From Eubacteriales bacterium (GTDB lineage Bacteria > Bacillota > Clostridia > UBA1381), in NCBI GenBank assembly GCA_018384175.1, contig JAHAZB010000069.1, positions 1-45,853 of the forward strand: a stretch of 45,853 nt of DNA, in the 5' to 3' direction. A model generated the notes under the pieces. That model searched no databases, was not told the origin of the DNA, and saw only the letters and a program-made list of their open reading frames with translations. The position numbers and the translations under genes are program-made. This document shows positions 8,325 to 29,001 of the stretch, in pieces. Numbering within the stretch: the first letter of the stretch is position 1; the number at the start of each line of letters is the position of its first letter.

Positions 8325-8400
8325 GTGGATTAAGGCATAATAATCTCTCCTTGTGAATATGCTATAAAAAAGGACAAAAACAGAAGGGATGGTCAAAAAT

Positions 8401-17832: not shown

Positions 17833-17867
17833 AAAAAATCAGAACGTATAAACGTTCTGATTTTTTT
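17833..17867. terminator. Bidirectional terminator
   Basis: Stem AAAAAATCAGAACG/CGTTCTGATTTTTT with a TATAAA loop, immediately after the mrp stop and against the stop of the converging XRE gene (17869). Strong T-runs on both strands. Confidence 0.92.
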
Positions 17868-23233: not shown

Positions 23234-25599
23234 ACGATTTTTTGAGCCGTTTAGGTAAGGAATTACTCTTTTTCGACGGAGCAATGGGAACCATTCTTCA
23301 GGAAAAGGGGCTAAAAGCAGGAGAGCTTCCTGAGTTATGGAACATAACTCACAGCGAAGATATTTTTGACGTACATAAAAGCTACGTCGATGCCGGCGCT
23401 GATGTTTTAACCACAAATACATTTGGCGCTAACCCCATTAAATTAAATGGGGACATAAAACTTCTTGAGGATATAATTACAAATGCTGTGTCCATTGCAA
23501 AAAGAGCGAGTCCAAACGGTTTTGTTGCTCTTGATATAGGGCCTTTGGGCAAGCTTTTGGCTCCTTATGGCGATTTGCCTTTTGACGATGCATATAACGC
23601 CTTTGCTGAGGTTGTAAAAATCGGCAAAGATGCAGGCGCTGACCTTATAGTGATTGAAACTATGAGTGATGTTTATGAGGCAAAGGCGGCTGTTCTGGCA
23701 GCTAAGGAAAACTCAGAGCTTCCCATAGTTCTTACCTTTGCATTTAATGAAAGCGGAAGACTTTTAACCGGTGCCGATATTGAAACTGTTGCACATATGT
23801 TTAACGGACTTGGCATTGATGCGCTTGGCTTTAACTGCGGTTTAGGCCCACGCGAGATTTTGCCATTTGTAAATGAGCTTACAAGCTTAACCGGTCTTCC
23901 CGTTGCAGTTAATCCAAATGCAGGTCTGCCGGTATCGGTAAACGGCAAAACTTTATTCAATGTAGATGCAGACGAATTTGCAAAGTTGCAGGAAAAGGTA
24001 TATGAAAGCGGTGCGGCAATTCTTGGCGGTTGCTGCGGAACAACACCGAAGCACATAGCAAAAACCGCAGCTCTTCTGAAAGACAGAAAGCCGGTTTTGC
24101 ATACTCCCGAAAAGGTTACCGCTGTTACATCTTCATCAAGGACCGTAAAGCTTGGAAACAAGCCTGTTATAATCGGAGAAAGAATAAACCCGACAGGCAA
24201 AAAGCTTTTGAAAGAGGCATTAAGAAACAACGATATTGATTACCTTCTTCGTGAAGCTGTTTCCCAGACCGAAAAGGGTGCAGACATCCTCGATGTGAAC
24301 GTAGGACTTCCGGAAATAAACGAGCCGGAAATGATGAAGTCTGCAATTATTGCTATACAAGGCATATCAAATCTGCCACTCCAGATAGACACTTCTGACA
24401 CAAATGCTATGGAAAAAGCACTCCGTTACTATAACGGAAAGGCTCTTGTTAACTCTGTAAACGGCAAAGAGGAATCTATGAACACCGTTCTTCCCCTTGT
24501 CAAAAAGTACGGTGCTGCAGTTGTATGTCTTACTTTGGATGAGAACGGTATTCCCGACACGGCTGAGGGCAGAATTGAAATTGCAAAGAAAATAGTCAGA
24601 CGTGCCGAAGAATACAGTATTTCCCGTGAAAATCTGGTAATCGATGCGTTGGCAATGACTATATCAACCGGTGCTGACAATGCGAAAATCACACTTGATA
24701 CCATAGACTATGTAAGAAACAAAATGGGACTTAACACCGTGCTTGGTGTTTCGAATATCTCATTTGGTCTTCCGGCAAGAGAGAATATCAACTCGATATT
24801 CTTCGCAAATGCTCTTGAACGTGGTTTGTCGGCAGGTATTATCAACCCTCTGTCCGACAGTATGATGACAGCATATAAAGTATTTTGTGCACTGCACGGT
24901 TATGACAAGGACTGCGCAGACTATATCGCTGCATTTTCTGATATAACCTCTGTTCCTGCAAGTACAAATACAACTCTTACTCTAAGGGAAGCAGTTGTAA
25001 AAGGGCTTTTGGAGGACTCGTACAATGCCGCAAAAGCATTGCTTACGGAAAATGCACCATTGGATATTATAAATAACGAGCTTATTCCTGCTCTTGATAC
25101 CGTCGGTTCCGGGTTTGAACAGAACAAGATTTTTCTGCCACAGCTTTTAATAAGCGCTGATGCCGCTAAACGTGGATTTGATGCTATAAAAGAATATATG
25201 ATAGAAACAAACACTGCCAGCGAATCGCGTGGGGATATCGTTCTCGCAACCGTTAAAGGCGACATACACGACATCGGTAAGAACATCGTAAAGGTGCTTC
25301 TGGAGAACTACGGCTACAATGTAATTGACCTCGGCAAAGATGTTCCGCCAGAGACAATAGTTGACACCGTTGTTAAAAACAATATAAAGCTTGTGGGCTT
25401 AAGTGCACTTATGACTACTACCGTATGCAATATGGAAGAAACAATAAAACTGCTTCGCGAAAAAGCCGACTGCAAGGTAATGGTAGGCGGCGCAGTGCTG
25501 ACCGAAGATTATGCTAAGTCTATCGGCGCGGATTATTATGCCAAAGACGCTTTAGGCGCAGTAAGAACAGCCAACAAATTGTTTGGCTATGAAAATTAA
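23230..25599 (+). CDS. metH: Cobalamin-dependent methionine synthase MetH (no activation domain)
   Basis: 789 residues in four modules. The homocysteine-binding barrel (about 1-285) has zinc ligands C203, C268 and C269 (FNCGLG, GGCCGTTP). The pterin-binding barrel (about 310-570) starts IGERINPTGKK. A B12-binding cap (about 570-660) follows. The cobalamin domain (about 665-789) carries DIHDIG with lower-ligand H680. It transfers the methyl of 5-methyl-THF to homocysteine through methylcobalamin. The roughly 300-residue reactivation domain of E. coli MetH is absent; the preceding gene supplies it. Translationally coupled to that gene by a 4-nt overlap. Confidence 0.96.
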   Translation: MNDFLSRLGKELLFFDGAMGTILQEKGLKAGELPELWNITHSEDIFDVHKSYVDAGADVLTTNTFGANPIKLNGDIKLLEDIITNAVSIAKRASPNGFVALDIGPLGKLLAPYGDLPFDDAYNAFAEVVKIGKDAGADLIVIETMSDVYEAKAAVLAAKENSELPIVLTFAFNESGRLLTGADIETVAHMFNGLGIDALGFNCGLGPREILPFVNELTSLTGLPVAVNPNAGLPVSVNGKTLFNVDADEFAKLQEKVYESGAAILGGCCGTTPKHIAKTAALLKDRKPVLHTPEKVTAVTSSSRTVKLGNKPVIIGERINPTGKKLLKEALRNNDIDYLLREAVSQTEKGADILDVNVGLPEINEPEMMKSAIIAIQGISNLPLQIDTSDTNAMEKALRYYNGKALVNSVNGKEESMNTVLPLVKKYGAAVVCLTLDENGIPDTAEGRIEIAKKIVRRAEEYSISRENLVIDALAMTISTGADNAKITLDTIDYVRNKMGLNTVLGVSNISFGLPARENINSIFFANALERGLSAGIINPLSDSMMTAYKVFCALHGYDKDCADYIAAFSDITSVPASTNTTLTLREAVVKGLLEDSYNAAKALLTENAPLDIINNELIPALDTVGSGFEQNKIFLPQLLISADAAKRGFDAIKEYMIETNTASESRGDIVLATVKGDIHDIGKNIVKVLLENYGYNVIDLGKDVPPETIVDTVVKNNIKLVGLSALMTTTVCNMEETIKLLREKADCKVMVGGAVLTEDYAKSIGADYYAKDALGAVRTANKLFGYEN

Positions 25600-25613
25600 T
25601 GGAGGTGGCTATA

Positions 25614-27056
25614 TTGAAAAAGATATTATTAATTTTATCTGTATTGCTTATGCTTGCACCCACAGCATTTGCAGATTGTGAGATGGAAGAGGTCTTTACC
25701 GATGTTCCGGAAAGACTCTATACTCCACCTGCTGTCAACTTCTTCTCAACTCCTTCTGTTGACGAGATTCTCTACAACCGATTTGAAACCGCAATTCTTG
25801 CCAATATTGAAAATGGCGCTTTACAAAAGGATATATCTATTTCTCTTTTGAATGTCGGTGTTGATTTTTATACCGATGCCGAGGTATACAATCTCAATTA
25901 TGTCCTTGATATTTACTCAAATGTTGTATATAATCATCCGGAAATAGGAAATTTGAAAACCGGCTTTACTCCTTACGTAGAATACCAAGGCAGTACTCAT
26001 TTAGTTAGTATTGTACCATCTTACCGCAAAATTTACAAAGAAGCAGAGTATCAGGCTTTAACCACACAAGAGGAAAAAGCTGCTTATATTGCTAAAACGC
26101 ATAATATAGACGAGTATAACAAAGCAATCGACTATGCCTTTTCAAAAGCAGTTTCGTCCGATATGTCTGATTTGGAAAAGCTTATTTCAATACATGATTA
26201 TTTAGCCGATTCAGCCAGTTATTCATTAGTCATTGCAAGCGGTACAGATGCCGAACAAGACGCATACAATCTCGCAAATGACAACCTTGTATATTCACCT
26301 TACAGCGCACTTGTAGGCGACAGGATTACAGTTTGTCAGGGATATTCCCTTGCGTTTAAGCTACTTTGCAATATAGCCGGAATAGAGTGCGGATATGCCT
26401 TATCCGATGCGATAAATCATATATGGAATGTTGTAGAATATAACGGAAACTATTATCACATAGACGTTACCTGGGACGACCCTCTGGTAAATAACGGTAA
26501 TTTTCATGCAGTTCTATTCCGGGATTTTATGATATCAGAAGAACGCAAAGCTGAACGAATCAGCCAAACCTATCCTTCTCTTGATAATTTTGATATTATA
26601 ACCCCATACGAATCTCAGACAATACTAATTCTTCCGTTCAGAGATAAAATTAATCCATTCTACTGGTATGACGGAAGCTTCTACTATAAGCGCAACGGCT
26701 CAATTTCGGCTAATGGAATTACCCTTTTCAGAGAGCCAGTATATTATAAAATTGATAGTTTAAGAGCTTGTGAGATACCAGAAACCGAATATCTGCCCGA
26801 TTTACAAATGGGTTCACAAATGTATAATGTTCTTACACGCAATAACAGAAACTGGCTTGCAATTGATGGTGCACCAAATACCTCCGTCGATTTGTATGCT
26901 GTAACATACGATTCTGACGGCAGACTGGTAAATACCGAAAAGACAGATGTACGTTTTAATGCTTACGGTGAAACGGTAGCAGTTTTTGACGGAAGCTTCT
27001 CAAAGCTTATGCTTTTTGGCGATGGAAGCATAAACCCACTCGCACTCTCAAAATAA
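25614..27056 (+). CDS. Secreted transglutaminase-like protein
   Basis: 480 residues from the TTG at 25614. The nearby ATG at 25599 overlaps the metH stop and lies on the ribosome site GGAGGTGG itself, so TTG is the likely start. A signal peptide (KKILLILSVLLMLAPTAFA, cleaved near residue 20) is followed by a transglutaminase-like core. Its Cys-His-Asp triad is visible as C241 (VCQGYS), H269 (INHIWNVV) and D284 (HIDVTWDDP). Such secreted proteins in Firmicutes act as cysteine peptidases or cross-linking enzymes; the substrate is unknown. The C-terminal 150 residues are beta-rich without a clear family. Though it follows metH closely (15 nt), a functional link is doubtful. Confidence 0.83.
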   Translation: MKKILLILSVLLMLAPTAFADCEMEEVFTDVPERLYTPPAVNFFSTPSVDEILYNRFETAILANIENGALQKDISISLLNVGVDFYTDAEVYNLNYVLDIYSNVVYNHPEIGNLKTGFTPYVEYQGSTHLVSIVPSYRKIYKEAEYQALTTQEEKAAYIAKTHNIDEYNKAIDYAFSKAVSSDMSDLEKLISIHDYLADSASYSLVIASGTDAEQDAYNLANDNLVYSPYSALVGDRITVCQGYSLAFKLLCNIAGIECGYALSDAINHIWNVVEYNGNYYHIDVTWDDPLVNNGNFHAVLFRDFMISEERKAERISQTYPSLDNFDIITPYESQTILILPFRDKINPFYWYDGSFYYKRNGSISANGITLFREPVYYKIDSLRACEIPETEYLPDLQMGSQMYNVLTRNNRNWLAIDGAPNTSVDLYAVTYDSDGRLVNTEKTDVRFNAYGETVAVFDGSFSKLMLFGDGSINPLALSK

Positions 27057-27071
27057 ATATGAACAAAATGT

Positions 27072-27109
27072 AAAAATTAGCACTCTCTGTTAAAGAGTGC
27101 TAATTTTTT
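27072..27109 (+). terminator. Terminator of the metH operon, overlapping CIRCE
   Basis: A 15-bp stem (AAAAATTAGCACTCT with AGAGTGCTAATTTTT) with a 7-nt loop and a T-run at 27104-27109 has the form of an intrinsic terminator 15 nt behind the transglutaminase-like gene. Its core is exactly the CIRCE operator. Confidence 0.65.
27077..27103. promoter_or_regulatory. CIRCE operator (HrcA binding site) upstream of htpG
   Basis: TTAGCACTC (27077-27085), a 9-nt spacer and GAGTGCTAA (27095-27103) match the CIRCE consensus at all 18 positions. CIRCE is bound by the heat-shock repressor HrcA, usually ahead of groESL and dnaK operons. Here it ends 7 nt before the -35 box of the htpG promoter. Confidence 0.93.
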
Positions 27110-27110
27110 G

Positions 27111-27139
27111 TTGACAAACGTGAAGAATAGGGCTAAAAT
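27111..27139 (+). promoter_or_regulatory. Promoter of htpG
   Basis: TTGACA (27111-27116), a 17-nt spacer and TAAAAT (27134-27139). An imperfect 18-nt palindrome (GGTATA...TATACC, 27142-27159) covers the predicted transcription start region just ahead of the AAGGAG ribosome site (27160-27165). Confidence 0.85.
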
Positions 27140-27141
27140 AA

Positions 27142-27159
27142 GGTATAGTAAATTATACC
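27142..27159. promoter_or_regulatory. Operator-like palindrome at the htpG transcription start
   Basis: GGTATA and TATACC arms surround GTAAAT; seven of nine opposing positions pair. It starts 2 nt after the -10 box, where a repressor would block transcription or a small hairpin would sit before the ribosome site. No known operator is recognised. Confidence 0.4.
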
Positions 27160-27174
27160 AAGGAGTTGAATAAA

Positions 27175-29001
27175 ATGGCAACAGGTAATATTACCGTCAG
27201 TTCGGAAAATATTTTTCCGATTATAAAAAAGTGGCTTTATTCGGACAAGGATATCTTTCTTCGTGAGCTTGTATCCAATGGTTGTGATGCAGTTACAAAA
27301 CTAAAAAAACTCTCGTCTTTAGGCGAGGCAAGCTTTGATGCTGAAGAAAAGTTTGCTATCACCGTTACAATCGACAAGGACGCAGGTACACTCTCCATTT
27401 CCGATAACGGTATCGGTATGACCGAGGAGGAGATTGAAAAGTATATCACACAGATTGCTTTTTCGGGTGCTGCTGATTTCCTTGCCAAATACAAGGAGGA
27501 AGAGGACAAGGGCTCACAGATTATCGGACATTTCGGACTCGGCTTCTATTCTGCATTTATGCCCTCCGACAAGGTCGAAATAGATACGCTCTCCTATCAG
27601 GACGGTGCAAAAGCTGTTAGATGGAGCTGCGACGGAAGTATGGAATACGAAATCTCCGACAGCGACAGAACATCAAGAGGAACTACTGTAATTCTTCATA
27701 TCGCAGAGGACAGCAAGGAGTTTTTAGAGGAGTTTACTGTAAGAGGTATTCTTAACAAATACTGTGCATTCCTGCCCGTTGAGGTTTTCCTTGAGGTTTT
27801 GCCTAAGGAAGAAAAGGAAGATGCTCCCGCACCCAAGCCGATAAACGACACTACACCGCTCTGGACAAAGCTGCCCAAAGATTGCACAGACGAGGAATAC
27901 CGCGAATTCTATACAAAGGTTTTTGCAGATTTCACACCTCCCCTGTTCTGGATACATCTCAATGTTGATTTCCCATTCAACTTAAAGGGTATCCTCTACT
28001 TCCCGAAAATCAACCACGAGTTTGCGGCGCAGGAGGGACAGATTAAGCTATTTAACAATCAGGTATTTGTTGCCGATAACGTAAAAGAGGTTATCCCCGA
28101 CTTCCTGATGCTCCTAAAAGGTGTTATTGACTGTCCTGACCTTCCGCTTAACGTTTCGAGAAGCTTTTTGCAGAATGATGGCTATGTTAAGAAGATTTCT
28201 TCACATATTACCAAGAAGGTTTCAGACAAGCTCGGTGAGCTGTTCAAAAAGGAAAGAGAAAGCTTTGAGCAGTACTGGGATGATATAAATGTATTTATCA
28301 AGTACGGCTGTCTGCGTGATGAGAAGTTCTATGACAGAGTAAAAGACTATATCATCTACAAGGATTTGGACGGCAAGTATCTGACACTAAGCGAGCTTAC
28401 CAATGACGGCGAGAAGAAGACTGTCTATTATGTAACCGACGAGAGCATACAGTCGCAGTACATCAACATTCTTCGTTCTCAGGGCGAGAATGCTGTTATG
28501 CTCCCTGCTGTGATGGATACTCACTTTATTTCCTTCCTTGAAATGAAGAATGAAGGACTTAAATTCAAGAGAATTGACTCGGCGATTTCCGATTCTCTCA
28601 CCAATTCAGATGCAGACAAGGACAATAACGATGGTATTATTGAGCTGTTTAAGACCACTCTTAATATTGAGGAACTTAAGATTGAGGCTCAGGCACTAAA
28701 GGCTGAGGATATGCCGGGTGTTATGCTCGTTTCTGAGGAGTCAAGACGTATGAGGGAAATGTACCGCTCTTACGGTCAGCAGTTTGCAGGTATGAGCGAA
28801 ATGTTCAAGGACGAGTGTACTCTTGTTCTTAATACCGCAAATCCCTTAATTAAAAAACTGCCAGATTTGGACAGCGAAAAACAAACTCTTATTATAAATC
28901 ACATCTACGACCTTGCATCACTTTGCAACAAGCCGCTCTCACCCGAGCAGATGACTCGATTTGTTGAAAGAAATAATCAGATTATGCAGATGGTGATATA
29001 A
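27175..29001 (+). CDS. htpG: Molecular chaperone HtpG (Hsp90)
   Basis: 608 residues from the ATG at 27175 (AAGGAG 9 nt upstream; the TTG at 27166 touches the ribosome site). The N-terminal GHKL ATPase domain shows ELVSNGCDA (residues 31-39, with catalytic E31 and Mg-binding N35), DNGIGM near residue 80 and the lid glycine motif GHFGLGFYS. The middle domain (PLNVSRSFLQND) and C-terminal dimerisation domain are present. It is an ATP-driven chaperone of the cytoplasm. Heat-shock control by HrcA is suggested by the exact CIRCE site; B. subtilis htpG is not controlled that way. Confidence 0.96.
   Translation: MATGNITVSSENIFPIIKKWLYSDKDIFLRELVSNGCDAVTKLKKLSSLGEASFDAEEKFAITVTIDKDAGTLSISDNGIGMTEEEIEKYITQIAFSGAADFLAKYKEEEDKGSQIIGHFGLGFYSAFMPSDKVEIDTLSYQDGAKAVRWSCDGSMEYEISDSDRTSRGTTVILHIAEDSKEFLEEFTVRGILNKYCAFLPVEVFLEVLPKEEKEDAPAPKPINDTTPLWTKLPKDCTDEEYREFYTKVFADFTPPLFWIHLNVDFPFNLKGILYFPKINHEFAAQEGQIKLFNNQVFVADNVKEVIPDFLMLLKGVIDCPDLPLNVSRSFLQNDGYVKKISSHITKKVSDKLGELFKKERESFEQYWDDINVFIKYGCLRDEKFYDRVKDYIIYKDLDGKYLTLSELTNDGEKKTVYYVTDESIQSQYINILRSQGENAVMLPAVMDTHFISFLEMKNEGLKFKRIDSAISDSLTNSDADKDNNDGIIELFKTTLNIEELKIEAQALKAEDMPGVMLVSEESRRMREMYRSYGQQFAGMSEMFKDECTLVLNTANPLIKKLPDLDSEKQTLIINHIYDLASLCNKPLSPEQMTRFVERNNQIMQMVI

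Follow-up and report, generated by a model that had tools for sequence, protein, structure and literature searches.

The htpG gene of an uncultured clostridial lineage appears to carry a genuine HrcA operator of an already known kind in an unusual and strictly spaced position: a perfect CIRCE ends exactly 7 nt upstream of the -35 element, and the same geometry recurs before htpG in at least 13 families. The operator very probably keeps htpG off at normal temperature, which would place the htpG of this lineage in the HrcA regulon. The window is the whole stretch analyzed, contig JAHAZB010000069.1 of Eubacteriales bacterium assembly GCA_018384175.1 (45,853 nucleotides; Table 1).

Table 1. Features around the htpG promoter (positions in the window; ".", no strand assigned)
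Feature	Position	Strand	Sequence or arrangement	Evidence
Transglutaminase-like ORF, co-directional, last gene of the metF/metH cluster	25599-27056	+	hairpin follows 15 nt after its stop codon	
Second element, probable (putative) factor-binding site	27058-27074	+	TATGAACAAAATGTAAA; consensus TRTGAA-N5-TRTRAA, direct repeat, 11-bp period	
Extended palindrome, possible intrinsic-terminator-like hairpin	27072-27109	+	AAAAATTAGCACTC...GAGTGCTAATTTTTT	15-bp fold
CIRCE, predicted HrcA operator	27077-27103	.	TTAGCACTC-N9-GAGTGCTAA; in full TTAGCACTC-TCTGTTAAA-GAGTGCTAA	pattern match, 0 mismatches to consensus
Spacer from CIRCE to -35, fixed at 7 nt	27104-27110	+	TTTTTTG	spacing counts across htpG sites
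htpG promoter, sigma-A type	27111-27139	+	TTGACA (27111-27116), 17 nt, TAAAAT (27134-27139)	hexamers matched at the same place in relatives
htpG (Hsp90 chaperone)	27175-29001	+		NF003555 HtpG, E=1.6e-195, 651 bits, cut-off 371

The inverted repeat matches the CIRCE consensus at every defined position, and the chance expectation for the whole window, with up to 3 mismatches allowed, is ~0.04 matches. It belongs to the promoter region of htpG, which encodes a chaperone. The earlier note had described an exact CIRCE upstream of htpG, followed 7 nt later by the promoter and thus located before the -35 element; all of this holds, and the upstream position proves to be general for htpG, while within the same family hrcA and groES have differently placed sites. 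At other genes CIRCE commonly coincides with the transcription start or lies downstream of it, a position that does not define the element and is not the one seen here. Judged from the -10 box, htpG transcription would start near 27146, and therefore CIRCE would fall outside the htpG mRNA. A ribosome-binding site (aaggag) follows near 27160, ahead of the ATG at 27175. No Rfam element coincides with the CIRCE site, the single Rfam match of the window being a tRNA at 1761-1833.

Both the repressor gene and a further CIRCE, which the earlier note had proposed looking for, are present in the genome. The assembly (1.98 Mb, 88% complete) encodes one hrcA (PF01628, E=2.1e-53; TIGR00331, E=2.3e-92), followed by grpE, dnaK, and dnaJ. 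This hrcA has its own perfect CIRCE between the -10 box and the start codon, and the htpG and hrcA sites are the only two CIRCEs in the assembly. CtsR is encoded as well. groEL was not found in the 88%-complete assembly, but given that groES follows a CIRCE in a congener (L133), a gap in the assembly is the most likely cause.

The spacing between CIRCE and the -35 element was examined by a gene-independent scan of 391 Clostridia genomes for CIRCE followed by TTGAC within 25 nt. TTGAC accumulates at 7 nt (or 8 nt): outside the family of the window (f1), 36 of the 61 tabulated sites in the 0-25 nt range have a gap of 7 nt and 6 have a gap of 8 nt. All fetched scan loci with a gap of 7 or 8 nt encode HtpG (21/21), whereas all those with other gaps encode HrcA (9/9). 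In a larger htpG set, which admitted only gaps of 6-8 nt and contains some genomes twice, the gap is 7 nt at 77 of 84 sites and 8 nt at the remaining 7. The geometry spans at least 13 families, as counted from the family labels of the scan rows, and places the center of CIRCE 21 bp before the -35 element, i.e., two helical turns. Culturable clostridia that share the 7-nt gap include Ruminiclostridium papyrosolvens (L052) and Anaerotignum neopropionicum (L107). In the window's family, unlike at htpG, the hrcA and groES CIRCEs lie downstream of the -10 box. In named clostridial genomes, CIRCE (up to 3 mismatches, within 350 nt) is present in 44 of 79 htpG upstream regions. Nearly all htpG genes of the window's family have it, and it is missing in some relatives (L007, L009, L025). 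In Peptostreptococcaceae (Romboutsia, Paraclostridium, Intestinibacter), TTGACA lies inside the CIRCE spacer before htpG, so that the htpG promoter is served by a different layout there; the window's family has this layout too, at some of its hsp20 genes (L164, L167).

Two further CIRCE sites were observed in relatives. A CBASS-like operon of a family relative (L230, G017:C147:6000-18500), which encodes the SAVED endonuclease Cap4, an oligonucleotide cyclase, E1-E2, and JAB, has a perfect CIRCE between the -10 box and the start codon, and the second element described below upstream of -35. By its promoter sequence, the operon looks as if it were under HrcA control. A search for Cap4 in the 391 genomes returned, besides this copy, a single partial match with 35% identity, and among the papers searched none links CBASS with HrcA. 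In L122/L231 (G012:C36 near 40172), a 2-mismatch CIRCE lies downstream of a TTGACA promoter, before the gene of a 230-aa protein that matches nothing in Pfam or PADLOC.

HrcA bound to CIRCE at htpG would sit right against the -35 element, centered 21 bp upstream of it, and may hinder RNA polymerase from taking the promoter, either by occlusion or by direct contact. Upon heat shock, GroE would be titrated away and HrcA lost from CIRCE, so that htpG would be induced together with hrcA-grpE-dnaK-dnaJ and groESL. The operator, the hrcA gene, and the conserved geometry come from the present analysis, and the HrcA/GroE thermosensing from published work. CIRCE is otherwise seen mostly on or behind the point where transcription begins, and repression from a site ahead of -35 is something we infer from the promoter layout. 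HrcA on CIRCE could instead act as a road-block or insulator, stopping polymerase that arrives from the upstream operon, so that htpG would need no terminator to be protected from read-through at low temperature. A co-directional upstream gene does end within 120 nt of CIRCE at 62 of the 84 sites, some of which lack a T-run. However, the CIRCE geometry is unchanged at the 13 sites with a divergent upstream gene, and we consider a road-block unlikely. Repression at the htpG promoter is the preferred reading.

The surroundings of the site invite another explanation. As the earlier note had it, the palindrome stands right behind the metH operon, the last gene of which is a transglutaminase-like ORF overlapping the metH stop. 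The CIRCE arms are extended by AAAAA (27072-27076) and TTTTTT (27104-27109), and as RNA the extended palindrome (27072-27109) can form a hairpin of 15 bp (dG -17.1 kcal/mol, z -7.5). The hairpin could therefore be a dual element, serving as intrinsic terminator of the metH/transglutaminase operon while the same palindrome binds HrcA. Its T6 run and its position behind the only nearby stop codon fit this proposal, as does the frequent occurrence of T-runs 4 to 6 nt long in the window's family. So does the make-up of a bidirectional-looking terminator between convergent ORFs elsewhere in the window (17833-17866), which resembles the CIRCE hairpin in having 15 pairs, only 4 of them GC, and A6/T6 flanks. 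Nevertheless, an A-run replaces the T-run at several htpG sites (form AAAAGTATTGAC; L022 and L026 in the window's family, L099, L103, L222, L224, L225), in L026 despite a co-directional gene 29 nt upstream. With neighbor orientation called from ORF length only, the leading T residues average 2.7 at sites with a co-directional upstream gene no more than 120 nt away (n=62) vs. 3.3 at sites with a divergent neighbor (n=13; P=0.43). Moreover, a simple terminator scan made no call at the hairpin on the + strand, and the neighboring TGTAAA element accounts for the A5 arm, most of which belongs to the tail of the second element and is not independent sequence. Because the T-run is neither conserved nor tied to a co-directional upstream gene, termination was rejected as a conserved, selected function, and the dual role as a whole appears rather unlikely. 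Of the earlier note's proposal, the 15-bp stem with its T-run stands locally, but a selected terminator role does not. Local termination in this one genome is possible, but it would then be incidental to the operator role in this lineage. A CIRCE with A/T-run flanks can thus resemble a terminator and yet not be kept as one.

In the window's family, CIRCE has a conserved companion. With the scoring threshold applied, the second element (TRTGAAYAWWTTRTRAAA in the family comparison) lies 1-2 nt upstream of 26 of the 28 htpG CIRCEs of the family and precedes every one of the 22 hrcA promoters; in other families it was found at 0 of 53 htpG sites under a stricter threshold. Its end is separated from the -35 element by 35-36 nt at htpG and by 14-15 nt at hrcA, so that the two distances differ by 21 bp. 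The ctsR promoters of four genomes (L254, i.e., G000:C149; L253, L255, L256) carry a reversed, weaker copy 20 nt before -35. Further promoters of the family also have the element, 10-40 nt ahead of -35. Summed over 70 family genomes, the element plus -35 pattern gave ~193 matches vs. ~14 for a reversed-pattern control. Many matches are at hrcA, htpG, and groES, others at polA (L305-L309, L323), transporters, and regulators. A heat-shock-specific meaning, to which hrcA, htpG, and the reversed ctsR copy had initially pointed, was therefore dropped. A further match in the window, at 8351 near valS, is regarded as weak or due to chance. The element was also rejected as a CtsR box, as the ctsR promoter has a separate perfect one. 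The 11-bp direct repeat recalls the sites of OmpR/PhoB-type regulators, and we infer a possible relationship; a self-regulating factor of this type was not supported, as no score came near the training range at any of 16 loci with OmpR-type DNA-binding domains from two congeneric genomes. The half-sites are similar to the B. subtilis CssR box TTTTCACA (PMC6749698), which is a lead only. Taken by its distribution, the second element is best described as a promoter-upstream element of this family with a putative binder. Alternatively, CIRCE might persist simply as an inherited sequence while another regulator, acting through this element, controls htpG. Its adjacency to the htpG and hrcA promoters of the family and its helical phasing would suit such control, but CIRCE is better conserved and far wider in range, and promoters with no heat-shock link, such as that of polA, carry the element too. 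This is very improbable, and HrcA acting through CIRCE is retained as the probable regulator of htpG.

Combining both features, clostridial HrcA may repress htpG by contacting RNA polymerase from an operator two helical turns upstream of -35, a geometry unlike that of groE and dnaK and present in at least 13 families, while in the window's family a putative DNA-binding protein would read the phased second element common to hrcA, htpG, and other promoters. This combined model is tentative, and we put it at somewhat less than an even chance. The htpG geometry as such suggests a second, strictly spaced mode in which HrcA sits on promoters.

In B. subtilis, htpG is a class IV gene and is not controlled by HrcA; it is likewise a heat-inducible chaperone gene, but it has no CIRCE and is positively regulated by another route. 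The classical CIRCE at groE and dnaK of Firmicutes such as B. subtilis shares with the htpG site the inverted repeat and the repressor. However, the classical element begins just downstream of the transcription start and not upstream of -35, where it would be absent from the mRNA; in L. plantarum, CIRCE at groESL and dnaK lies in this usual position, a few nt after the start (PMC1676014). Closer parallels are found within the clostridia. A passage on C. acetobutylicum places htpG in the HrcA regulon and reports its upregulation by butanol and butyrate stress (PMC3828012), and a passage on C. cellulovorans assigns a CIRCE to hsp90 (PMC8336468). As described in these passages, the class I regulons have an HrcA site before htpG (hsp90), with CIRCE also at hrcA-grpE-dnaK-dnaJ and groESL. 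The "lineage-specific wiring" assumed by the earlier note is contradicted by these published or predicted links, as well as by the frequency of CIRCE at clostridial htpG genes and the family range of the -35-proximal geometry. The same passages describe the regulons without promoter geometry (PMC3828012, PMC8336468), whereas here it was measured and is fixed at 7 nt before -35. The link between HrcA and htpG is thus already known in clostridia; what is added here is the strict htpG-specific spacing and the family-specific companion element.
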